A stretch of DNA of 64,000 nt from a bacterium (lineage in GTDB: Bacteria > Pseudomonadota > Alphaproteobacteria > Acetobacterales > Acetobacteraceae): assembly GCA_026224825.1 (NCBI GenBank), contig JAMFRO010000022.1, forward strand, positions 248,001 to 312,000, in the 5' to 3' direction. The position numbers and the translations under genes are program-made. The notes below the pieces were generated by a model that saw only the letters and a list, made by a program, of their open reading frames with translations, did not search any database and had not been told where the DNA came from. Of this stretch, positions 50,432 through 64,000 are shown piece by piece (positions within the stretch are counted from its first letter, which is position 1; each line of letters starts with the position of its first letter).

Positions 50432-51193
50432 TCAATGTGTCGTGTACCCGCCATCCACCGGCAGAGCGATACCGAGGATGAAGCTAGCACCGTCGCTGCA
50501 GAGCCAGAGCGCCGCCGCCGCCGCCTCCTCGGCCTGACCAAGGCGACCGATAGACTGGTCGCGCAGAATTTCCTTGAGTGCGTCCTGCTCGATGGCCGAG
50601 GACATCGGCGTCTCGATCGTCCCGGGACACACCGCATTCACGCGAATATTCTTGGCCGCAAAATCAAGCGCTGCGCATTTTGTCAGACCGAGCACCCCGT
50701 GTTTGGATCCATGGTAGGCAGCCCGGTTCAGCAGGCCGACCAGCCCGCCCAGAGAGGAACAATTCACGATCGCGCCGCGACCCTGCTTCTCCATCTGGAT
50801 CAGCTCGTGTTTCATGCAGGTCCATATGCCCTTCAAGTTGACGGCATTGACGTTATCGAAACTCTCCTCGGTCTCATCGGTGATCTTCCCCCAGGGCCCG
50901 ACAATTCCGGCATTGTTATAGGCCATATCGAGCCGCCCGAAAGCAGCAACCGCTTTTTCCACCAAACCCTTGGCTTCGGCCTCGATGCTGACATCGCAAG
51001 CCACGGCGAGCACCTTATGGCCGGCAGCGGCGAGTTTTTCGGTGACGGCCAGCAGCGCATTTTCGTTGCGGTCTGACAAGACCACCGCCGCGCCGCTTTG
51101 CGCAAAAGCCCCGGCGGTCGCAAAACCGATGCCCTGACTGGAGCCGGTGACAAGTGCGACTTTGCCCGTAAAATCATAGCTTGGTTTGGTCAT
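50432..51193 (-). CDS. Short-chain dehydrogenase/reductase
   Basis: 253-residue classical SDR. The cofactor motif TGSSQGIG (near residue 17), the NNAG motif, catalytic Ser in VNCSSLGG, and Y-x-x-x-K (YHGSK, near 158) are all intact. An acid-adjacent position (SDRNE) after the second strand suggests NAD preference. Third gene of the cupin-AKR-SDR unit and still intact. GAGGAATAATT precedes the ATG. Confidence 0.92.
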   Translation of the reverse strand: MTKPSYDFTGKVALVTGSSQGIGFATAGAFAQSGAAVVLSDRNENALLAVTEKLAAAGHKVLAVACDVSIEAEAKGLVEKAVAAFGRLDMAYNNAGIVGPWGKITDETEESFDNVNAVNLKGIWTCMKHELIQMEKQGRGAIVNCSSLGGLVGLLNRAAYHGSKHGVLGLTKCAALDFAAKNIRVNAVCPGTIETPMSSAIEQDALKEILRDQSIGRLGQAEEAAAAALWLCSDGASFILGIALPVDGGYTTH

Positions 51194-51219
51194 ACTGAAT
51201 TATTCCTCGTGATGGATTT

Positions 51220-52311
51220 TCAGGCGCGGCCTAGCGGATGATCCGATCCCGCCGCGACGGGCGGCGGGGGCGCCTTGGTGCCATGCTGCTGCAACCAGCG
51301 GCCACGTTGCCATTTGCCGAATGCGCCGTAGGGGTACCCGCCGGCAACCGGTGTGCTCAGCCGGTCAAGCTCGGCGGTAACCTCCGTGCTTAGCTTCAGC
51401 GAGGCGGCCCCGAGATTCTCCTTCAATTGCGCTATATTGCGCGCGCCAAAAATCGGGGCGGTCACCCCAGGCCAATCAGAAAGCCAGCTCAACGCCACCT
51501 GCGCAGACGTCGCGCCAATCTCACTTGCGATACGGACCACCGCATCGATGGTGGCCCAATTCTGATCCGAATCCGCATACTCGGCGGAGGTGGATTGATA
51601 AAGCGGTTTTTCGGAGCCCGCACGGGTGCCTGCCGCCGGCCGGCCGCCGCGTTCATACTTGCCGGCCAGAAAACCGCCCGCGAGCGGCGACCATGGCAAC
51701 ACGCCAAGCCCATTGTAAGTCGCCGCAGGGATCACCTCCCACTCGCTCTCGCGAGACAGCAGGCTGTATTGCTGTTGCAAGGTAATGGGCGCCGGAATCC
51801 CCATCGCCTTTGCGGTGGAGACGATAAGTTGCAGCTGCCAGCCGGTGAAATTCGACAGGCCAAAGTAATGAATTTTCCCGCTCCTGAAGGCCGCATCAAG
51901 AAAGGACAATGTCTCTTCAACCGGCGTTTCCATGTCCGAAGCGTGCAGCTGATACAGATCTATGGTTTCGACACCGAGACGGTACAGCGAAGCATCCAAA
52001 GCCCGGTGCAGATAGCGGCGGGACAGGCCCAACCCGTTGGGGTCCGCATTATTGCCCGCCCTGCCCTTGCTTGCCAGCACGATCCGGGCGGTGATGTCGC
52101 GCGGCCGAGCGGCCAGCCAGCGGCCGACCACCTGTTCCGCCAAGCCGCCGACATAGACATTGGCCGTGTCGATCAGATTGCCGTCCGCCTCGACAAAACC
52201 ATCCATGATGGCAAAGGCATCTTCCTCCGGGGTTTCGCTGGCGAAATACATTGTGCCAAGCGCCAGCTAGGAAACAACCGTGCCGGAATTACCGAGTTTC
52301 CTGTAGTCCAT
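51220..52311 (-). pseudogene. Aldo/keto reductase with premature stop
   Basis: The full AKR frame starts at ATG 52311 (MDYRKLGNSGTVVS) but meets TAG at 52267-52269 (codon 15). The rest continues in the same frame without further stops: LALGTMYFASETPEEDAF, then NLIDTANVYVGG with the catalytic Asp/Tyr, KGRAG, and DLYQLHASD. A single GAG-to-TAG change would explain it. Internal start at ATG 52251 would remove the first beta strand and likely inactivate the barrel. Middle gene of a LysR-linked operon. Confidence 0.83.
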
Positions 52312-52316
52312 CGTTT

Positions 52317-52724
52317 TCAGCCTTTCTGCGTACCGGAATATTGCGCATCAGTGACCTGCTCCAACCATTCCACGGCCACGCCGTTCAGTTTTTCCTGAAT
52401 GGCGATATGGCTCATGGCCGTCGCCGGCGTGGCGCCATGCCAATGGCGCTCGCCGGGCGGAATCCACACCACATCCCCCGGCCGGATTTCCTCTATGGGT
52501 CCGCCATCATGCTGCACCCAGCCGAGGCCGAATGTCACCACCAGCGTCTGGCCCAGCGGGTGGGTGTGCCAGGCGGTCCTGGCGCCGGGCTCGAATGTCA
52601 CCAGCCCGCCGCCTACGCGGTCCGGATCCGGCCCGAACAGCGGGTCCACTCGCACTGTGCCGGCGAACCAATCCGCCGGCCCAACCGTGGAAGGCCGCGA
52701 CCCAACGCGTATGACCTGCACCAT
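52317..52724 (-). CDS. Cupin-domain protein
   Basis: 135-residue single cupin. Motif 1 is [21 protein letters not shown] (metal His pair, Glu replaced by Gln) and motif 2 is [17 protein letters not shown]. Similar proteins are annotated as carboxymuconolactone-decarboxylase-associated or quercetinase-like cupins. First gene of a unit with AKR and SDR genes, divergent from a LysR regulator. Confidence 0.88.
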
Positions 52725-52835
52725 CTTTCTGCTCCTTTTCCAACATTTCAGGAAGGCGTTGAGCCCACCCGCAACTCACATGAATAATATAGGGGCTGAC
52801 GCAGCCTGCGATTAGACGCTATTATTCGCATGAAC

Positions 52836-52854
52836 TTATAAGTATTGCTTATAA
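52836..52854. promoter_or_regulatory. Candidate LysR operator at start codon
   Basis: TTATAAG and CTTATAA are perfect 7-base arms around TATTG, ending directly before the LysR ATG. Binding here would block its own translation start region and act on the divergent cupin operon. Confidence 0.6.
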
Positions 52855-53745
52855 ATGAAGACCGATCTGAATTATATCGTGGCCTTTCTCGCTGTGGCGC
52901 GGCAACGCAGTTTTACACGGGCCGCGGCACAGCTCGGCGTGTCGCAATCCGCTCTCAGCCAGACCATACGCGGCTTGGAAAACCGGCTAGGTGTGAGATT
53001 GCTGACCCGTACCACCCGCAGTGTCGCACCAACGGAGGCGGGTGAGCGGCTGCTGAACGCCGCCGGGCCACGGCTGGATGAGATCGGCGCAGAACTGACC
53101 GCACTCACCGCGTTGCGTGACAGACCCTCCGGCACGATTCGTATCACGGCGCATGATCATGCGGTGCACGCCGTGCTCCTCCCGGCACTGCAAAACTTGC
53201 TGCTCGACTATCCGGACATCAAAATAGAGGTGGTCATCGATTACGGGCTGACGGATATCGTGGCCGAGCGCTACGACGCCGGCATTCGCGTGGGCGAGAT
53301 CGTGGCCAAGGACATGATCGCCATCCCCATCGCTCCAGAAATGCGCTCCGTCGTCGTCGGCGCGCCAGCCTATTTCGCGGGGCGGCAGGAGCCCGCCACG
53401 CCGCAGGAGCTGACGAACCATAATTGCATCAATTTGCGTTTGCCAACCTATGGCGGGCTTTATCCTTGGGAGTTTGCAAGAGACGGGCGGGAATTACGCG
53501 TGCGGGTCGATGGGCAGCTCATCTTCAACGGTTCGGCGCCCATGCTAGAGGCAGCCCTATCCGGGCTTGGCTTGGCCTATGTCCCGGCAGATACGGTGCA
53601 GCACCACATCACCGCCGGCCGGCTGGTTCAGGTATTAGCCGATTGGTGCCCGCTTTATCCCGGCTACCATCTCTATTACCCCAGCCGCCGCCAGCCTACG
53701 GTCACTTTCAGCTTGCTGGTGGAAGCGCTGCGCTATAGCCGGTAG
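52855..53745 (+). CDS. LysR-family regulator
   Basis: 296-residue LysR-type regulator. HTH: FLAVARQRSFTRAAAQLGVSQSALSQTIRGLENRLGVRLLTRTTRSV spans about 10-56. The effector domain follows (GTIRITAHDHAVH). It is divergent from cupin-AKR-SDR, the classic arrangement for LysR and its target. The operon's AKR is broken, so the pathway may be partly lost. Confidence 0.92.
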   Translation: MKTDLNYIVAFLAVARQRSFTRAAAQLGVSQSALSQTIRGLENRLGVRLLTRTTRSVAPTEAGERLLNAAGPRLDEIGAELTALTALRDRPSGTIRITAHDHAVHAVLLPALQNLLLDYPDIKIEVVIDYGLTDIVAERYDAGIRVGEIVAKDMIAIPIAPEMRSVVVGAPAYFAGRQEPATPQELTNHNCINLRLPTYGGLYPWEFARDGRELRVRVDGQLIFNGSAPMLEAALSGLGLAYVPADTVQHHITAGRLVQVLADWCPLYPGYHLYYPSRRQPTVTFSLLVEALRYSR

Positions 53746-55083: not shown

Positions 55084-55887
55084 CTATTTCGTACGTTGTC
55101 GCACAAGCGGGTAAAACAACTCCTCCACCCAATGCACTTCATGTCCCGGCAAGCCGTACTTCGCGGGCCGACCTGTGGGGATATATAGTGTCCCGAACAG
55201 CCAGTCATAGACTGCGAGAAACACGCCAAAATTGCGGTAATTGGCGCCATCTCGCCCAAAACCGTGATGAGTGTGGTGCATACCCGGAGATACGATCACA
55301 TGTTCGAAGGCGCGGAAGGCTCGCCCAAAAACTCGATGCCGACGAATAGTGTCGTCCCAACGGAAATGGCTGTGCGTAATGATATTCCAAACGCTGATCA
55401 AGAGTATAACTGTAATTGCCGCATTTATCTGGCCGAGATAAACGACGAGGCCCATGACCCATGCCGTGGGAATGATAATGTACCAGAACAGGTTCAGCCG
55501 TCCGAAATATAGTGTTACGTTCATATACGGCGCAGAGTGATGCGTCCGATGGATCCTCCACAATATCGGAAAGCGCGCCGTCGCAGTGGTATGAGCCCAA
55601 CGATGGACCCAATAGAAGCAAAACTCATTAATAAGCAAAATTACAGGGAACGAAATCAAGAATGGAACGCCAGTCAGGGCGTTTTTATAGTGAGGTAGAA
55701 AGAAACCATACGAGCTAGCGATGAGTACTGTAACAGCAGGAGCGGCTACCACCCGGCCGAGCACCAAACTTCCAAAGAAGAGCGGAACATCGTGCCATTT
55801 GTATATTCCCTTGTGCCGGCCGGCGACGATTTCGATCAGCAATAGAACCGCTGCTCCCATCATCACCCATGTCAAATATTTCTCCAT
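55084..55887 (-). CDS. Membrane di-iron hydroxylase (sterol desaturase/fatty acid hydroxylase superfamily)
   Basis: 267-residue membrane enzyme with four or five helices. The di-iron histidine clusters are present: HRWAH (near 102), HRTHHS (near 118), and HHTHHGFG (near 204). Such enzymes hydroxylate or desaturate lipids such as sterols, fatty acids or carotenoids. ATG 55887 has GTGAGG upstream; GTG 55905 is possible. Divergent from a LysR regulator and near a sulfatase cluster, so a lipid-like substrate is likely. Confidence 0.9.
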   Translation of the reverse strand: MEKYLTWVMMGAAVLLLIEIVAGRHKGIYKWHDVPLFFGSLVLGRVVAAPAVTVLIASSYGFFLPHYKNALTGVPFLISFPVILLINEFCFYWVHRWAHTTATARFPILWRIHRTHHSAPYMNVTLYFGRLNLFWYIIIPTAWVMGLVVYLGQINAAITVILLISVWNIITHSHFRWDDTIRRHRVFGRAFRAFEHVIVSPGMHHTHHGFGRDGANYRNFGVFLAVYDWLFGTLYIPTGRPAKYGLPGHEVHWVEELFYPLVRQRTK

Positions 55888-55911
55888 CACGAGCCTCACT
55901 TTCACGGAAAA

Positions 55912-55944
55912 AATAAGCTACTTGCTTTATAATTTCAAATGCAT
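55912..55944. promoter_or_regulatory. Divergent-promoter dyad shared with the sulfatase region
   Basis: AATAAGCTACTTGCTTTATA and the bases that follow (through ATGCATTTT) lie between the hydroxylase and LysR genes. They match the site at 62722-62759 at 14 of 20 bases in the dyad and about 18 of 24 from GCTTTAT onward. Shared control of the two loci is inferred. Confidence 0.5.
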
Positions 55945-55973
55945 TTTCATGGCTTGTATGATAACAAAAAGGC

Positions 55974-56846
55974 ATGGAAATCGACCTCGTCAAACTCAAT
56001 TACGTGCTGACAATTGCGCGCACACGCAGCTACTCTCGCGCCGCCGAAGAACTAAGAATTACACAGCCTGCCTTGAGCCGAAGCGTGATGGCTGTGGAGA
56101 AACGCTTCGGATTTAAGATCTTTGATCGCGGACGAAATGGCGTTTCGGTAACCCCTCTGGGAACGATCGTCTTGGCTGATGCCGAAGTTCTAGTTCGCGA
56201 TGCGGCCACCTTTGAGCATAATTTGCGTCTATACGGGCGCGGCGATGCCGGGACGGTCGCCTACGGCATGGGACCACTTATCGCGAGTCTGCTTTTGCCA
56301 AAGCTGAGCATCGCTATGCTTGCGGCGCGCCCGCAGCTTCGAATGTTATGTTCGATCAAACCCGCGGATATTCTGCTGCGCGAACTGCTAGGCGACAATA
56401 TCGAGATGATGTTTTGCGCGGCCGAGCAGGTCTCGCCTTCACCTGAGATCGTTATTGAGTCACTTGGCACGATCAGACTGGCCATCATTGCGCGTTCGGA
56501 ACACCCGCTGACGGCAATAGATGCGCCGAAGCTCGCAGACCTCGCGGCTTATCCCTTGGCATCCTCCTCGGAGCTTAGCTTCCTAAGTCAACTGGGTAAG
56601 GGGGGCACGCTGATCTGCGATAACTACGACATCATGCGCGAACTGGTGCTCGGCGGCGAGGCCGTTTGGATGTCATCCCCCAAAATAGTTTCGGAAGACA
56701 TAGCTGCCGGCAAGTTATGCGAAATTCCGATCATTGGCCTGCCGCCTCGTCAGAGCACCGTGGCCGTGGTTCGCCTCAAAAGACGCACGAACTCTCCGGC
56801 AGCAAAAGCAATCGCAACTCACGTGAGGAAGCAACTCACAAAATAA
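55974..56846 (+). CDS. LysR-family regulator
   Basis: 290-residue LysR-type regulator. HTH: VLTIARTRSYSRAAEELRITQPALSRSVMAVEKRFGFKIFDR is the domain, about 12-52. It is divergent from the membrane hydroxylase and convergent with DUF1329, so it probably regulates the hydroxylase and perhaps the DUF1302-sulfatase unit. A hairpin terminator lies 24 bases after the stop. Confidence 0.92.
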   Translation: MEIDLVKLNYVLTIARTRSYSRAAEELRITQPALSRSVMAVEKRFGFKIFDRGRNGVSVTPLGTIVLADAEVLVRDAATFEHNLRLYGRGDAGTVAYGMGPLIASLLLPKLSIAMLAARPQLRMLCSIKPADILLRELLGDNIEMMFCAAEQVSPSPEIVIESLGTIRLAIIARSEHPLTAIDAPKLADLAAYPLASSSELSFLSQLGKGGTLICDNYDIMRELVLGGEAVWMSSPKIVSEDIAAGKLCEIPIIGLPPRQSTVAVVRLKRRTNSPAAKAIATHVRKQLTK

Positions 56847-56870
56847 TAATAGTTCTAGCTTCATCCAGTA

Positions 56871-56902
56871 AAATGGCCACCAGATGCCTCTGGTGGCCAT
56901 TT
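56871..56902. terminator. Bidirectional terminator-like hairpin
   Basis: A perfect 14-bp stem (AAATGGCCACCAGA/TCTGGTGGCCATTT) with loop TGCC lies between the convergent LysR and DUF1329 genes. The A/T ends give short U-runs in either direction. Confidence 0.78.
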
Positions 56903-56952
56903 ACAGTACGAAGCTGTGCGCCGAGATTAACGGTATTGATCAGTTAAGTGCT

Positions 56953-58338
56953 TTAAAAACTAGCGGTCGCTGCTAACTCCTGAGGATCGAAGGTGGTGCG
57001 CGGTATGTTATTTAAGGTCAAGCTGCCTTTAAACGGAGGATAGGAACAATTTCCGTTAAAAGTATAGTCACCGGTGATCAGGCTGTGTGTTGTTGTCGCG
57101 AGCTGAATTGTTCCCGGCAATGACGGTACGCACCAATTATAAATGCTATAGGCTTTGACCAGATTCATCTCCGCATCATAGCCCTCGCCCAGAAGGGAGT
57201 ACCAACTGTCCTCATCGAGGTAGAAACGCCGCCGCGCATTCACATTGCGTTCGCCAGGATGCAGATTTGCCTCCACAACCCATACGCGATGCTTTTCCCA
57301 GCGGACATAATCGGGATTAATATAATGAGGCTGGAGGATGTCCTGCACATTACCGAAAGCGATGGCGTTGCAATTATAGGGAACGAGCATTTCCTGTTTG
57401 CCGATATAGGTCCAATCATATTGCGACGGATTACCGTAGAAGCAGGTAGCTTCGTCGATGTTGGCAATTCCATCGGCGGCTGGGCTTGGTGTGTCATAGG
57501 CCTCGTCGGGCGCCTTGCGCACACGTCCTTGACCGTTCAACAACGTCCAGACAATATCGGGGTGGATGTTGACATTGGTGCTATGCCAGACCAGCGTTTC
57601 CTGTCCTTGGACTACCGACGGCGCTTGCGTGTAGAAGTGAGCCTTGCTGAGATAGCCATCATAACTATCCGGCGTAACATCAGGGTCGTAGTACGGATGG
57701 ACTGTGCGGCTGACCGTGCCACTCACGAGGATGAGTTTCCCTGCAATCACGACAACGCCGGGGTTGAAACTACCGCTCGTGTAAAAGCCATTCCAGGCAG
57801 TCAGATGATTCCATATCAACTGCGCGCCACCGACCAGCGGATCAGAAGTATCGATGATCGGAAATGGTGCCCCACATACTGCCCCGGTAAAACCAAACCG
57901 CCCGCCTTGAGGGTCGAGCTGTGCACGCGTCACATTCTTGGTTGTGTTATCGTAGATATATTGCGGCAGGGCGGCGGTACGGTGGGTTGGATATACTTTT
58001 AGGCTGCGGCCGAATTTCGTAATCTCCGCCTGGGTACCTGGCGTCAGCAAATGCTGATATTGAGCTATGTTGCTGGCATCCACGGTGTAAAGCGGCTGCT
58101 CATCGGTGAAGAGCTGTACGCCCACTGCCTGGTCCGGGGGCAGAGGCGATGACACCATGCCGCCCGTCCAGGCAGGAATTGAGCCATCCGCATTTCCCGC
58201 ACGCTCGGCACCCATAGGTGTCAGTGTGGTGGTGAGCAGAGACGGATCGGGGGACGCCGACTGCGCGCGGGCCGGCCGGAACACTGCCGCGGTTGCGAGA
58301 CTTGTGCTGGCGAGAAGGCCAAAGTCACGTCGTTTCAT
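56953..58338 (-). CDS. DUF1329 exported protein
   Basis: 461-residue DUF1329 protein. A Tat-type signal (KRRDFGLLASTSLATAAVFRPARA) precedes a large periplasmic domain with family blocks NPGVVVIAGKLILVSG and HRVWVVEANLHPGERNVNARRRFYLDEDSW. DUF1329 proteins resemble LolA/LppX-like lipid carriers and usually occur with DUF1302. ATG 58338 is chosen for the AAGGA 10 bases upstream and the Tat motif. It lies 50 bases after DUF1302 on the same strand. Confidence 0.88.
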   Translation of the reverse strand: MKRRDFGLLASTSLATAAVFRPARAQSASPDPSLLTTTLTPMGAERAGNADGSIPAWTGGMVSSPLPPDQAVGVQLFTDEQPLYTVDASNIAQYQHLLTPGTQAEITKFGRSLKVYPTHRTAALPQYIYDNTTKNVTRAQLDPQGGRFGFTGAVCGAPFPIIDTSDPLVGGAQLIWNHLTAWNGFYTSGSFNPGVVVIAGKLILVSGTVSRTVHPYYDPDVTPDSYDGYLSKAHFYTQAPSVVQGQETLVWHSTNVNIHPDIVWTLLNGQGRVRKAPDEAYDTPSPAADGIANIDEATCFYGNPSQYDWTYIGKQEMLVPYNCNAIAFGNVQDILQPHYINPDYVRWEKHRVWVVEANLHPGERNVNARRRFYLDEDSWYSLLGEGYDAEMNLVKAYSIYNWCVPSLPGTIQLATTTHSLITGDYTFNGNCSYPPFKGSLTLNNIPRTTFDPQELAATASF

Positions 58339-58387
58339 GATATTCATATCCTTCTTTGGATTCTGCATTGCGTGTTTTGTGCATGGC

Positions 58388-60097
58388 TCAGAATGTGTGC
58401 TGTAGATTCAGAGAAACGTAGCTTCGGTCTGCAACATTTGAGACCTCTGGCAGCAGAGGATTGGAGGAAATTCTGCCGAAATACCCGATGTAGTTGAGCG
58501 CCGCACTCCAGGCATTGCGATACGTGGCTACGACGCCCATCGCGTAGTTGCCGGTGCCATGGTTCATCGTCACATCCATCTGAGAATTCCCGGCAAAATT
58601 ATACTTCAGCGACACCGGGAACTGCAGTTCGAGTTGCGGCAGCACATCATAATAGGCCGGCTCAACCTGAACATCGAAGGCCGCGGCGGAGGAACTGCGG
58701 CCCGGTGCGAGCAGTGCTTTGTTTGCCATCACGCGGAACACATTCACATACTCGACTTCGCCTGTGAGCGTGAGGCCGCCTGGGTCCAGCGGGAGTCCCG
58801 GCGAGCCGTAGATGAGCGAACTCAAAGCCGTCATCGTATTGCCCACGGGATAAAGCGGATCGTTATTGGCGTTACCCATATTGGCCGCCGACTGCGCACC
58901 CGCGGTCGTGCTCGCTACGAGTGGCATATGGGTACGAACGCTCACCTCGCCCGCGACGTTCGTTGCGCCGATCGTCGTCGAAAGGCTGGTGCCGTACACC
59001 CAGATATCGCGCGCGTAGACCGCCGTATACTGACCCACCGCGGTCCCGCCCGGGGTGGGCGTGAAGCTGGTCGGCGCGAGCCTATAAATATCCGGCGTCT
59101 TGGCGTCATACCTGAGACCAAACAGACCGACGTCGTAATTGCCATACTGCGCCTGCGCCGAAAGGCCGAATTGGCCATTCTGCGACGGCGGCGACAGATC
59201 CTTGGTGCGCGTCAGATAGAAATTGCTGCTGCCGGCTTGCGCGGCAATAATGCGGTCGCCACCAGGCCCCGTGACATCGCTAGTGCTGAAATATGAGCCA
59301 ACGCCCTGGAGATTATAAGACTCCCATTGATACTGATAATAGCCCTGCAGGGTAAAGGTATCATTGGGCTGGTAGGTGGCCACGATCTGCCCAACGGGCA
59401 GGAATATCTGCTGGCTTTGTGGATTGACCAGGTCCTGTGCCGAAATTACATCGATCGGCGCCTGGCCACCGGCGATGCCGTTGGTGCCGAAGTACAGACT
59501 CTGGCCCCAGAGCAGCGTCTGCTGACCCGCCTTCAAAGTGATCTGCTGACCGCCGCCGAACTGCCAGCTATTATAAACAAAAGCATCGAGCAAGCGTCCG
59601 TTATTACCGTCGGCCGTGCGCGTTTCTGAGGCGTAATCCGTGCTCTTTCCCACAACCGGATTTACGGTTGCAGGCTGATTGTTCTGGTTGGTCCCGAGAT
59701 ACACCGTATTGACGAAATATTCGCCGCTGAAATGCATGCCGAACTGGTCATCTTTGATGTCCAAAACGGGCAAAACCTCAAAGGTATTGCCAACAACGCC
59801 ATGTCGCAAATTCGCGTCGCCATCATTGCCGTTGGCATTGGTGGCGCCTGATACCAAGATTTGGCTTGGATTACCTACGCGGTACAGGCCAGTATATGAC
59901 GTCGTGAGATCGAGACTGATCTCGAGATTATTTCCGTATTCGCTTCCATTATACAGTGACATCGCATGCGCCGCCGAGCCGGCTGCCAATGCCAACCCGC
60001 TGGCTACGGGCAATCCCAAGGCCAAATCCAGCAAGCATCGCAATTTCTTGCCCTTGCGCGCCCACGGCCCTGCGGAAGACTTCATTCCTTTTCCCAT
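58388..60097 (-). CDS. DUF1302 outer-membrane-like protein
   Basis: 569-residue DUF1302 protein, predicted outer-membrane beta barrel. A signal peptide (up to AAHAMSLYNG) is followed by many alternating strands and ends in Phe (SLNLQHTF), as outer-membrane proteins do. Family blocks are KAGQQTLLWGQSLYFGTNGIAGGQAPIDV and LTLTGEVEYVNVF. DUF1302 with DUF1329 is repeatedly found in gene sets that move or degrade hydrophobic compounds. ATG 60097 has GGGGGA upstream. Lies about 100 bases after the sulfatase, probably cotranscribed. Confidence 0.9.
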   Translation of the reverse strand: MGKGMKSSAGPWARKGKKLRCLLDLALGLPVASGLALAAGSAAHAMSLYNGSEYGNNLEISLDLTTSYTGLYRVGNPSQILVSGATNANGNDGDANLRHGVVGNTFEVLPVLDIKDDQFGMHFSGEYFVNTVYLGTNQNNQPATVNPVVGKSTDYASETRTADGNNGRLLDAFVYNSWQFGGGQQITLKAGQQTLLWGQSLYFGTNGIAGGQAPIDVISAQDLVNPQSQQIFLPVGQIVATYQPNDTFTLQGYYQYQWESYNLQGVGSYFSTSDVTGPGGDRIIAAQAGSSNFYLTRTKDLSPPSQNGQFGLSAQAQYGNYDVGLFGLRYDAKTPDIYRLAPTSFTPTPGGTAVGQYTAVYARDIWVYGTSLSTTIGATNVAGEVSVRTHMPLVASTTAGAQSAANMGNANNDPLYPVGNTMTALSSLIYGSPGLPLDPGGLTLTGEVEYVNVFRVMANKALLAPGRSSSAAAFDVQVEPAYYDVLPQLELQFPVSLKYNFAGNSQMDVTMNHGTGNYAMGVVATYRNAWSAALNYIGYFGRISSNPLLPEVSNVADRSYVSLNLQHTF

Positions 60098-60199
60098 CGC
60101 ATTCCCCCAGTTTATTATGTAGTCAGCCATTTTTTGTTTTTAATTCGTTACACAAGACTCAAAACCACTTTCGGAATCGTGTGCAACATCAGCCACGCA

Positions 60200-62650
60200 T
60201 CAGTCAGGTAGCTTCGGCAGATTTTGTATGAACGACAGCACCTGAAAGCCAATTGGTGGCTTCAAGTTGACCTCAACTTTCTTTATGTCACCGGTAAAGA
60301 TACCCTCGTTGCTATAATCATCCGTAACCGGAACACCGCTATCGCGGCCAACATCGAAAGTCTCAGCCGTACCCGCCATCATCATTGGGCGGTGTGCTAT
60401 TTGACCGCTGGCAACCTGTGCGCCATTCACCAAGATCGTGAGCGTTCCACCTTCGCCAGACGGCGTGAACTCATACCGCACAACGCTGTTGCCAGCCGCT
60501 AGAGGATTAGGGGCTTCGATCCGGGTTTGCATTCCTGGAAGATTGGAAGCAGCCGCAAAGGCTGTGGGCTTGCCATCTCTAAGGTAAAAGCTCCAACCAC
60601 CGAACCAGCTACCAGCAGCGACGATCACTCCGTTCGCACCATTGGCTGGCACATTGATGTCCGCTTCTATGCTAAACGGTAAGCTAAAGATTGCCGGTGA
60701 GCTGACATTCGGCAGGTAAATATCCTTGCCCCAGAAAACGTAGTTGAACCTGAACGATTTCGTAGTCATCGCGGTCTGAATGGCGCGATACGTCAAACCA
60801 CTATCCTGAATCGGGTAGACGTTATTCTTGCGCGCCTCTTCATCGAAGAGCGTTTGCATCGCTTTAAGCCGGTCGGGGTATTGCGCCGCTACATTATGAG
60901 TTTGGCTGTAGTCCGTATCGAGATCATAGAGTTCCCAGTTGTAACTCGTCACATCGCTATTTGGCCGGTTATGAGCAATATCCCATGGCATGTTGCGCGG
61001 CGTGGTGTTCGCAAGCCAGCCATCATGATAAATGCCGCGGTTACCCATCATCTCGTAATATTGCGTTTGATGGGTCGAAGGCGCATCTGCATTATCGAAA
61101 CTATAGGCCATGCTCACACCATCGAGAGGCAACTGTGGAATACCGTCAAAGGTTTGCGGTGCCGTCACATGCGCGAGCTGCAGCAATGTCGGCATGATAT
61201 CGACAACATGGTGATATTGGTGCCGGATTTGCCCAACATCCTCGATATGCCCGGGCCATGAGATCACCATCCCATTGCGTACACCGCCCAAATGCGAGGC
61301 AATCTGCTTGACCCAGGGAAAAGGCGTGTCCATCGCCAACGCCCAGCCTACGGGATAGTTCTCGTAGGTTTTTGGACCACCCATGATGTCGAGATGCTGT
61401 GCCAGCCAATGAGGATCCGCTACGCGCTCATCCTCGGCCGCCTGGCTCATTCCTATAATCTCATCCAGCGTGCCATCTGGGCCAGCCTCGCCGCTTGCGC
61501 CATTATCGCCTTCGATGAAGACCACAACAGTATTATTCGCGAGCCCCATGCGGTTGACTTCGTCTAGAACCCGGCCAATTTGGTCATCTTCATAAGCGAG
61601 CATTCCCGCATAGACTTCCATGTAACGCTCATCGACGGTCTTCTGGTCGGGCGTCAGGCTGTCCCAGGTAGGAATCTGAGTCGGCCAGGGCGAAAGCTCC
61701 GCATTTTGCGGCACAATACCCATCGCCTTCTGCCGGTTTAGAGTATCAACGCGCAATTGATTCCAGCCCTCATTGAATTGCCCATGAAACCTTGCAATCC
61801 AATCCGCCGGCGCTTGATGTGGCGCATGAGTGCTCCCAGGCGCATAGTAGACAAAAAATGGCTTGTTCGGCGCTGCGATTTTTTCTTGATGTATCCAGTC
61901 TATGGCGTGGTCAGCCAAGTCCTGGTCAAGCATATAGCCTGGGGGGCGCTGCGACCCATCGACGCGCGTGGTGTTGTTGTAAAGGTTCGGCTGATACTGA
62001 TTTGAATCGCCGCCAACAAAACCATAAAAATGATCAAAGCCTAGGCCTGTGGGCCAGCGGTCGAACGGCCCTGCTGCGGATTCCTCACCGCTGGGCGTAT
62101 CATGATCTTTGCCAAACATGGCTGTCGCATATCCGTTGCCGCGAAGGACATCCGCAATTGTGTCGGCATTCTCCGGAATCATTCCGGTATAGCCAGGATA
62201 GGGCGAGGAAATATCCGCCAAATCGCCTATACCGACATCGTGCTGGTTGCGCCCGGTGAGCAGTGCCGCACGTGTTGCGGAACAGATCGACGTCGTCTGG
62301 AACTCGTTATATTTCAGTCCGTTTGCCGCCAGTCTGTCGAGATTTGGCGTTGGGATTGGCCCACCAAAAGTGCCGCTGGCACCAAACCCAACATCATCGG
62401 TTAAGACAACGATGATGTTGGGTGCGCCTTGAGGTGCCTGAACAGGAGCCAACAATGCATAGTCCGGTTGCGAGCCACTCAGAGTCGGCGCGAATTTTCC
62501 GCTGAATGGCGGGGGAGGATAAGGCAATGCATTTCCTGCAAGCGGGGCTGAGCCGGCCGAGGGTGCGGGCTTTTGAGCGTGCACAAGCGTCAATGCCGTG
62601 GTTGCCAGGAGCAGCGCCCCAAGAGTCGCTGTAACATAAGGTAGCTTCAT
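60200..62650 (-). CDS. Exported arylsulfatase with CSATR motif
   Basis: 816-residue type I sulfatase. A signal peptide (MKLPYVTATLGALLLATTAL, cut after AQ) directs export. Metal ligands DD (residues 85-86, VVLTDDVGFG) and an AMFGKDHD block are present. The formylglycine site is C123-S-A-T-R127: the usual CxPxR with Pro replaced by Ala, a variant (C-x-A-x-R) noted in some sulfatases. A C-terminal LamG-like domain (about 660-800) could bind a glycan or lipid. It is the first gene of a unit with DUF1302 and DUF1329; FGE lies across the divergent promoter. Confidence 0.92.
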   Translation of the reverse strand: MKLPYVTATLGALLLATTALTLVHAQKPAPSAGSAPLAGNALPYPPPPFSGKFAPTLSGSQPDYALLAPVQAPQGAPNIIVVLTDDVGFGASGTFGGPIPTPNLDRLAANGLKYNEFQTTSICSATRAALLTGRNQHDVGIGDLADISSPYPGYTGMIPENADTIADVLRGNGYATAMFGKDHDTPSGEESAAGPFDRWPTGLGFDHFYGFVGGDSNQYQPNLYNNTTRVDGSQRPPGYMLDQDLADHAIDWIHQEKIAAPNKPFFVYYAPGSTHAPHQAPADWIARFHGQFNEGWNQLRVDTLNRQKAMGIVPQNAELSPWPTQIPTWDSLTPDQKTVDERYMEVYAGMLAYEDDQIGRVLDEVNRMGLANNTVVVFIEGDNGASGEAGPDGTLDEIIGMSQAAEDERVADPHWLAQHLDIMGGPKTYENYPVGWALAMDTPFPWVKQIASHLGGVRNGMVISWPGHIEDVGQIRHQYHHVVDIMPTLLQLAHVTAPQTFDGIPQLPLDGVSMAYSFDNADAPSTHQTQYYEMMGNRGIYHDGWLANTTPRNMPWDIAHNRPNSDVTSYNWELYDLDTDYSQTHNVAAQYPDRLKAMQTLFDEEARKNNVYPIQDSGLTYRAIQTAMTTKSFRFNYVFWGKDIYLPNVSSPAIFSLPFSIEADINVPANGANGVIVAAGSWFGGWSFYLRDGKPTAFAAASNLPGMQTRIEAPNPLAAGNSVVRYEFTPSGEGGTLTILVNGAQVASGQIAHRPMMMAGTAETFDVGRDSGVPVTDDYSNEGIFTGDIKKVEVNLKPPIGFQVLSFIQNLPKLPD

Positions 62651-62721
62651 GCGTGTCTCCCTGCGAGCGCGCCCAATCTTGGATGATGGCGCCTCCTGGT
62701 TTCATATGGCTTTTGCCAGGA

Positions 62722-62759
62722 AATAAAGCAGTCGCTTTATTAAAGCAAGTGCATTATAT
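62722..62759. promoter_or_regulatory. Candidate operator, sulfatase/TetR divergent promoter
   Basis: AATAAAGCAGTCGCTTTATT (62722-62741) is a dyad with perfect 8-base arms. GCTTTA-T-TAAAGC overlaps it. It lies between the divergent sulfatase and TetR genes. A similar sequence is at 55912-55944. Confidence 0.6.
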
Positions 62760-62922
62760 TAACGTGGCCGCTTTAAATTGCCGTTGAGATGTCGTATACT
62801 GCCGCGGCATGATCTGCGATTATTAGCGATCGCTGTCTGGCATGCGTTTAGGGATATGGGCGCGTCACCGGGAGCCGTTGGCACCTTCGGCGGCAGAATG
62901 TGGGCAACCTGGAGGGAACACT

Positions 62923-63639
62923 TTGAACGAGCGAATGGCATTAAAGCGCGGCGCCACGACCAAGCTTCGGAATACACCCGCTTTCGCCGCGGCCGAAACA
63001 CCTTCGACCAAGGCCCTGCTGATTGACGCCGGCGAAAGATTATTTGGCCATCATGGCTTTGACGGCATCTCTTTGCGAGAGATTGCGGCCGTAGCCGGGC
63101 AAGCCAACAATGCGGTGGTTCATTATCATTTTAAAGACAAACCAGGGTTGATAAGAGCGATTCTCGATGATCGCGTTGTTAGAATCGAGACGATAAGATC
63201 CGAATTATTGACGACGCTTAAAACGAGTCGAAATCCAGATCCAAAAGAAATGCTAAAAATCCTATGGCTTCCTTCGATGAGCATTAAGGGTAGTGATGGA
63301 AGTCATACATTCTGCCGATTTCTGTTGCAGCATATATTGCATCCCGACATGGTGCCACACCCTATTGGCGACGTCATCAACCAACCTAAGGCACGCAAGG
63401 GCAAGGCAAAGGCCGAGTTGCCTTACCTTGTGGAATCTATGGAGATGCTGCGCGAATATTACCACAAAATACCAGAGGAAATATTCTCCAAGCGTCTCTT
63501 GGCTTTGAGTACAATGTTTCTTGCTTCGGTTGTGCAATTTGAGAACACACACTTTATCAAGGCATCCACTGCCACATTAGCTTTTGATACTGATTCAATT
63601 TTGAACATGGGTCTCGCTGCTCTGTCGGCGCCGCCATGA
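62923..63639 (+). CDS. TetR-family regulator
   Basis: 238-residue TetR regulator. HTH: LIDAGERLFGHHGFDGISLREIAAVAGQANNAVVHYHFKDKPGL is the domain, about 33-76. The ligand domain contains a TetR_C-like segment (VVQFENTH). TTG 62923 is chosen because GGAGGG lies 6 bases upstream; ATG 62935 is the alternative. It is divergent from the sulfatase operon and directly upstream of FGE, so it likely controls both by sensing the substrate or product. Confidence 0.9.
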   Translation: MNERMALKRGATTKLRNTPAFAAAETPSTKALLIDAGERLFGHHGFDGISLREIAAVAGQANNAVVHYHFKDKPGLIRAILDDRVVRIETIRSELLTTLKTSRNPDPKEMLKILWLPSMSIKGSDGSHTFCRFLLQHILHPDMVPHPIGDVINQPKARKGKAKAELPYLVESMEMLREYYHKIPEEIFSKRLLALSTMFLASVVQFENTHFIKASTATLAFDTDSILNMGLAALSAPP

Positions 63640-63700
63640 AATCAGAGCTGGCCGTAGATTGATCCGCCACATTATAAGCGAGCAGCAAAGGATAGCGGCA

Positions 63701-64000
63701 TTGAACGTGGTAAATGGTGATCATCTGGATGATGTCGAGATGATCGAAGTACCAGGCGGCACATTCATCATGGGCTCCAACGATCATTACGTGGAAGAAG
63801 CTCCCGCGCATCGCGTAAAGGTCGATGATTTTTTAATGGATACTCTGCCGGTAACAAACCGGCGCTTCTCAGCCTTCGTGGCTGCCACGGGCTACACAAC
63901 AGCAGCCGAACTGCCGCCCAACCCCGAGCATTATCCCGGGGCTTTGCCGGAAATGATGTATCCTGGTTCGCTCGTGTTTATCCAGCCAAGGATACCAGCG
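63701..64000 (+). CDS. Formylglycine-generating enzyme (FGE/SUMF1), partial
   Basis: The gene runs off the window; about 100 residues are seen. It begins near TTG 63701 (AAAGGA upstream), with ATG 63740 as alternative. The N-terminal FGE domain is clear: MIEVPGGTFIMGSNDHYVEEAPAHRVKVDDFLMDTLPVTNRRFSAFVAATGY is the span, with PGGTFIMGS and PVTN as key blocks. FGE oxidises the sulfatase Cys to formylglycine aerobically, before export. Its place next to the sulfatase strongly suggests it matures that enzyme. The catalytic Cys pair would be downstream of the window. Confidence 0.88.
   Translation, partial: MNVVNGDHLDDVEMIEVPGGTFIMGSNDHYVEEAPAHRVKVDDFLMDTLPVTNRRFSAFVAATGYTTAAELPPNPEHYPGALPEMMYPGSLVFIQPRIPA

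Follow-up and report, generated by a model that had tools for sequence, protein, structure and literature searches.

The window analysed here (the whole 64 kb stretch, C59:248001-312000, of the 446 kb contig C59 in a 4.27 Mb genome of 108 contigs) ends in a block of seven genes that we interpret, at a probability of about one half, as a unit under LysR and TetR control whose products would desulfate a hydrophobic sulfate ester, transport it and hydroxylate it, and would in this way either use or disarm it. A Pfam search finds all seven genes as earlier described within 55084-64000, so that the cluster proposed in a sequence-only reading of this DNA (sulfatase, FGE, DUF1302/DUF1329, hydroxylase and two regulators) is present, and the FGE gene proves complete past the end of the window. 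In window coordinates and in gene order, the block reads as follows.

55084..55905, minus strand: FA_hydroxylase-superfamily (sterol desaturase-like) membrane hydroxylase, 273 aa (PF04116, E 2e-20)
55974..56846, plus strand: LysR regulator, divergent from the hydroxylase (Pfam)
56953..58368, minus strand: DUF1329 protein, presumed periplasmic (PF07044, E 6e-92; RR-type signal sequence by eye)
58388..60130, minus strand: DUF1302 protein, presumed outer-membrane barrel (PF06980, E 1.8e-89)
60200..62650, minus strand: S1 formylglycine (FGly)-type sulfatase, 816 aa (PF00884, E 1.5e-62; export signal by eye; motif CSATR)
62842..63639, plus strand: TetR regulator, divergent from the sulfatase (PF00440)
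63659..64669, plus strand: FGE, the aerobic sulfatase activator (E 3.7e-15 on the window part, which ends at 64000)

The sulfatase and DUF1302 genes are separated by 69 bp and the DUF1302 and DUF1329 genes by 19 bp. Because these gaps are tight, the three genes are consistent with one transcript; they look like an operon with the LysR and hydroxylase genes on one side and the TetR and FGE genes on the other. By eye, translation of DUF1302 probably starts downstream of the listed ATG. The G+C content at third codon positions (GC3) is, from hydroxylase to FGE, 0.573, 0.612, 0.595, 0.671, 0.573, 0.508 and 0.522, against a background of 0.744 (standard deviation 0.076) for 27 greedily picked open reading frames (ORFs) of at least 200 aa from positions 1-40 kb of the window. 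It is 0.705-0.765 on one flank (a short-chain dehydrogenase/reductase or SDR, an aldo-keto reductase, a mandelonitrile lyase-like protein and a second LysR, LysR2) and 0.724-0.818 on the other (the MMPL, BNR, DUF1329 and DUF1302 genes of a second transporter set); a deformylase gene adjoining the block has 0.63. With GC3 below that of most surrounding genes, the seven genes look like one acquired unit.

The sulfatase belongs to the S1 FGly class by its motif and by its metal and sulfate ligands. Residues D85, D86, C123, R127, K181, H183, H275, D382, N383 and K448 are invariant in eight aligned rows including the window, and we take these ten to be the S1 catalytic and metal residues. The motif CSATR fits the consensus C/S-x-P/A-x-R, which admits proline or alanine at the third position according to the available part of the S1 sulfatase classification (PMC5066984). 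Among 104 script-readable motifs from 119 sulfatase ORFs checked, some of them fragments or duplicate readings of a single gene, the window holds the sole CSATR; proline is found in 96, and the other alanine occurs in one SSATR. Sulfatases paired with a radical-SAM maturase (L011:2496-4931, L015 and L026) carry CTSTR or CSSTR, with serine where the published motif has P/A. The complete FGE (336 aa, PF03781, E 5.6e-81) lies at L008:660-1670. It aligns with human FGE (1y1e, E 3e-73) and matches bacterial FGE too, and the family profile together with the paired active-site cysteines, both kept in the C-x4-C arrangement, places it among the aerobic FGEs. Judged by these residues, both enzymes look intact.

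The membership of the hydroxylase in the FA_hydroxylase superfamily is clear (74 bits versus a cut-off of 31; histidine clusters HRWAH, HRTHH, HSH and HHTHH), and no solved relative was found by sequence at E<=1. The ornithine lipid hydroxylase OlsE, a lipid-remodelling enzyme, was considered and set aside (30 bits versus an NCBIfam equivalog cut-off of 475). In a set of 147 related genomes that includes the host itself, the hydroxylase occurs at E<=1e-30 in four: the host, G021 (59%), G016 (50%) and G140 (36%). A divergent LysR gene stands beside it in the first three. The LysR of G021 (294 bits, 50%), the nearest one within the genus, is the only strong relative in this set, that of G016 being 33%. 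In G016 the hydroxylase relative looks to be part of a β-oxidation cluster, its neighbours resembling a GMC oxidoreductase, an aldehyde dehydrogenase, a CoA-transferase, acyl-CoA dehydrogenases, a FadJ-type protein and a thiolase; like many annotations in the compared loci outside the window, these were made by eye or with local blastp rather than with Pfam.

The same LysR subfamily accompanies the sulfatase elsewhere. Among the best 80 of at least 581 confirmed sulfatase relatives, several of whose loci end at contig ends, LysR relatives were found in L074, L046, L037 and L044 at 246, 229, 227 and 215 bits, the next outside the window scoring 52. In all four (L074, L046 and L044 from Novosphingobium, L037 from a gammaproteobacterial metagenome-assembled genome) the LysR gene directly adjoins the sulfatase. 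These 80 loci were picked by their sulfatase; a search of 72,556 plasmid records with the LysR is free of that choice. At E<=1e-30 it returned two records, RL4 and pSA1, both from Novosphingobium and both with a member of this sulfatase family close to the best match. The matches comprise four places, three of them in RL4, and the RL4 result concerns the best of the three, where LysR is adjacent and divergent to the sulfatase; in pSA1 the two are about 4 kb apart with a TonB-receptor-like gene between them. At E<=1e-50 the LysR is confined to the host among 298 genomes of the class, with up to eight candidates scored per genome. A tree built from 33 chosen sulfatases places the window sequence and all six LysR-linked sulfatases in one 14-row set (93/90) nested in a 16-row clade (100/99). 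The window therefore unites both partners of one LysR subfamily, which supports the sulfatase and the hydroxylase acting together. The earlier suggestion that the genes act as one unit gains from this linkage, to the sulfatase elsewhere and to the hydroxylase within the genus, as well as from the low GC3, and we infer that they may be co-regulated in the host.

Further parts of the region recur in company. In L074 the LysR (43%), the sulfatase, FGE (61%) and a P450 that is 47% identical to one in L008 are found together; the L008 P450 has no plasmid match at 1e-60. One 18.8 kb stretch of RL4, far from its sulfatase, holds relatives of the hydroxylase (49%), LysR2 (60%) and the aldo-keto reductase (60%). 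FGE similarity was dropped as a linkage marker because FGE matches of this kind are widespread (195 plasmid records at E<=1e-60).

A number of observations weigh against a single functional unit. As regards LysR, the 14-row set also contains four sulfatases with no LysR nearby (L036, L039, L052 and L069), G021 has the LysR and the hydroxylase and lacks the sulfatase at E<=1e-100, and LysR relatives of 159-183 bits adjoin neither partner in the host itself (C59:108908), G014 and G035. Another host copy found by profile (C54:5723) also lacks both, and the pSA1 LysR scores no higher (177 bits by tblastn) than these partnerless relatives. As regards composition, low GC3 is not confined to the block, the host DUF1302 copy on C35 having 0.626, and the DUF1302 of the block (0.671) is less than one standard deviation from the background and would not stand out alone. 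As regards the transport pair, no sulfatase was seen in the stretches read around the host DUF1302 copies on C87, C35 and C52 or around the pairs in G014 and G009. In the 147 genomes the sulfatase (E<=1e-100) is found in 12 and DUF1302 (E<=1e-20) in 21; six of the 11 other sulfatase genomes also have DUF1302, and in none of these six, which are drafts, do the two share a contig at a distance of 20 kb or less. Only one of the 80 best named loci, L072 of Pseudomonas kielensis, has DUF1302/DUF1329 near the sulfatase in a local profile search. A TonB receptor, on the other hand, lies within 6 kb in eight of the 80, which indicates that other outer-membrane partners serve this sulfatase family.

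A wider sample of 397 genomes of the phylum, in which no more than three and two candidates per genome were scored so that the counts are lower bounds, has DUF1302 in at least 69, the sulfatase in at least 50 and both in at least 12, the host included. Besides the host, at least two (G499 and G222) have them within 25 kb. We do not count G222 as a real link, since the genes are 21 kb apart, the sulfatase is in two pieces and transposase-like genes were seen by eye. In G499 a DUF1302-DUF1329 pair, MMPL, FGE and sulfatase lie within about 20 kb. The sulfatase is also found in 13 genus-mates of G499, with FGE adjoining in 12 (the thirteenth stretch is cut off), and DUF1329 is within 1.5 kb of it only in G549; of the three for which wider stretches were annotated (G549, G541 and G535), the last two have neither DUF1302 nor DUF1329 there. 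The sulfatases of G499, a long branch of unsure placement, and of P. kielensis fall outside the clade of the window sequence, so the association of sulfatase with DUF1302/DUF1329 probably arose more than once. The neighbourhood survey that had been proposed as a check thus gives a divided answer: DUF1302/DUF1329 is rarely near this sulfatase, the scattering that would speak against the idea, but the linkage of LysR to sulfatase and to hydroxylase recurs.

Two other features were seen around this sulfatase family. G499, G549, G541 and G535 (L138-L139, L172, L174 and L176) share a cluster of sulfatase-FGE, TetR, GST-like, PPIase-like and DUF3604-like genes, several of them named by eye. Multihaem TPR-cytochrome-like proteins occur within 6 kb in seven of the 80 loci and also in G080 and G492, the source of reference sequences (L068, L072, L087, L089, L093, L099, L110, L179 and L180).

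The rarity of the sulfatase-DUF1302/DUF1329 link, together with the finding that DUF1302/DUF1329 pairs adjoin differing catabolic genes within the genus, would fit chance neighbours in a patchwork island with no joint function. We consider this improbable in view of the tight gaps, the single low-GC3 block and the linkage of LysR to both enzymes in other genomes. The parts are all known and it is their combination that appears uncommon; to speak of a new system, which was first put forward as a candidate, is too strong, and a new combination of known modules describes it better.

The closest relatives of the window sulfatase raise a different alternative, in which it would only free sulfate under sulfur limitation, the transporter and hydroxylase neighbours being secondary. 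A four-row clade (99/97) joins it to sister sulfatases of C99, in the host genome, and of G032. Also contrary to our interpretation, these sisters are paired with a radical-SAM maturase (477 bits against TIGR03942 in C99), and by eye a TonB receptor accompanies them. The C99 island (L011:2496-6222 and L010:9578-18478) contains three sulfatases, the radical-SAM sulfatase maturase and TauD-type dioxygenases, with an ABC transporter and a TonB receptor identified by eye, a setting like that of sulfur scavenging. The block differs: no sulfur-assimilation gene is among its identified genes, FGE, LysR and TetR genes belonging to the sulfatase lie close to it, the LysR subfamily is linked to an oxidizing enzyme as well and catabolic genes follow. 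Scavenging as the sole role is therefore unlikely in our estimation.

Two sites in the block may bear on its control.

62722..62757, between TetR and sulfatase: perfect 8 bp inverted repeat AATAAAGC-N4-GCTTTATT with an overlapping second copy
55913..55930, in the 68 bp LysR-hydroxylase promoter gap (55906-55973): copy of the repeat with three mismatches

The first is a candidate TetR operator. The second is suggestive only: the window has five matches to the repeat versus 1.27 expected, two of which fall at sites unrelated to the block, and simple shuffling of the gap yields a three-mismatch copy in 0.7% of cases, all of this having been examined after the fact. In L008 the repeat has a chance-level match only.

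If the block is indeed one unit, we infer the following order of steps. The cytosolic FGE would turn the sulfatase cysteine into formylglycine, and the sulfatase, exported via its Sec-type signal, would strip sulfate from an amphiphilic ester outside the inner membrane. DUF1302 in the outer membrane and DUF1329 in the periplasm could then carry the freed hydrophobic alcohol, perhaps with nearby BNR and MMPL/RND proteins, and the membrane di-iron hydroxylase may oxidize the aliphatic part of the desulfated product for further breakdown. The outer-membrane placement of DUF1302 follows predictions for relatives in the available parts of two reports (PMC6394551, PMC10866462); DUF1329 has no solved structural relative by sequence at E<=1. 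A more specific version, a dedicated lipid-sulfate pathway, is put forward tentatively and with less confidence: desulfation outside the inner membrane, DUF1302/DUF1329 transport and membrane hydroxylation would form one regulated unit, LysR would sense the sulfated or desulfated lipid and the pair would replace the TonB receptor that adjoins relatives of the sulfatase in sphingomonads.

The class of substrate can be narrowed little. The sterol- or alkyl-type molecules first suggested are fixed by nothing found, and no result points to sterols in particular. Sphingobium estronivorans is among the sulfatase relatives, a steroid hint that comes from its name only. Human STS-like steryl-sulfatases first appear at place 27 among the PDB matches (E 2e-18, against 1.9e-70 for the best) and such an assignment was not made, although steroid substrates are not thereby excluded; choline-sulfatase was likewise rejected (55.5 bits versus an NCBIfam equivalog cut-off of 433).

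Efflux is commonly under TetR control, which counts towards a further and rather doubtful alternative, namely that the unit serves to desulfate and hydroxylate a membrane-active compound and to expel it, instead of feeding on it. In the available part of its description, deletion of the related four-part transporter AmeABCD raises Nile Red accumulation and lowers monoterpene tolerance, and the system is argued to be an exporter (PMC6394551). This also tells against our interpretation and undercuts the import that had been proposed at the outset; in the block, transport may run in either direction. Export as the purpose of the block is opposed by the need for the P. putida DUF1302/DUF1329 proteins in Tween 20 use, as reported in the part of that study available (PMC10866462), and by the catabolic genes that adjoin the block.

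Extending the sequence past 64 kb, as had been advised, does reveal further transporter and acyl-CoA-type genes just beyond the window, beginning with one feature 0.6 kb past FGE.

L008:2316-8947 (window coordinates 65315-71946): second, complete DUF1302-DUF1329-BNR-MMPL set

It is followed in L008 by an amidohydrolase, an AMP-dependent acyl-CoA ligase, a P450, an SDR-like gene, PhyH and a Rieske oxygenase; the downstream genes measured on this side have GC3 0.69-0.82 and are not necessarily part of the block. A KstD-like flavoprotein in L009 was not called a 3-ketosteroid dehydrogenase (319 bits versus a cut-off of 789). Between FGE and the second set, a short EAL-domain ORF (L008:1758-2084, window coordinates 64757-65083) matches the profile end only and is perhaps a gene remnant at the block edge. 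On the other side, window positions 50432-53745 carry the SDR, the aldo-keto reductase (51220), the mandelonitrile lyase-like cupin (NF049940, above cut-off) and LysR2 (52855).

DUF1302 is present in at least 69 of the 397 sampled phylum genomes, yet its cargo is poorly understood, and a pair linked with a sulfatase, with the activator of that sulfatase and with an oxidizing enzyme offers a testable handle on that cargo. The locus would furthermore indicate a way in which bacteria process sulfated hydrophobic compounds, for example steroid sulfates; in the text available of a 2025 review of estrogen biodegradation, sulfate conjugates are listed and the word sulfatase is absent from the main text (PMC12507874). 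In the collection of papers searched there was no paper joining DUF1302, DUF1329 and a sulfatase, none on DUF1302 with steroids and none on a gene cluster of sterol desaturase and arylsulfatase with LysR.

Among known systems, the closest solved relatives of the sulfatase by sequence are AtsA of P. aeruginosa (PDB entry 1hdh), assigned to S1_4 in the available text of PMC5066984, and PDB entry 7all. Compared with these, the window sulfatase is extended at its C-terminus by about 190 aa, a region whose ConA-like match is weak (21.2 bits, under the 27.6 cut-off). The Novosphingobium loci (L044, L046, L074, RL4 and pSA1) share the LysR subfamily and the sulfatase clade, with FGE adjoining in L074. 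They differ in that DUF1302/DUF1329 was not found in L044, L046 and L074 and none was seen in the RL4 and pSA1 stretches, the hydroxylase is not beside the sulfatase and pSA1 has its TonB-receptor-like gene. AmeABCD, described in the part of the report available as a monoterpene RND transporter of Castellaniella defragrans (PMC6394551), shares the DUF1302 and DUF1329 pair. The block's own pair is headed by the sulfatase gene and has no BNR or MMPL gene adjoining in the operon, so it is not a four-part cassette of this type, whereas the second set holds all four components. PP_0765/PP_0766 of P. putida are a DUF1302/DUF1329 pair as well, and sulfatase, FGE and hydroxylase are not named in the available parts of that account (PMC10866462). 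There the pair is required for Tween 20 use and predicted to cooperate with partners whose genes lie elsewhere, a periplasmic protein and an efflux transporter (PP_2018 and PP_2019), which sets a precedent both for distant partners and for the use of a greasy substrate.

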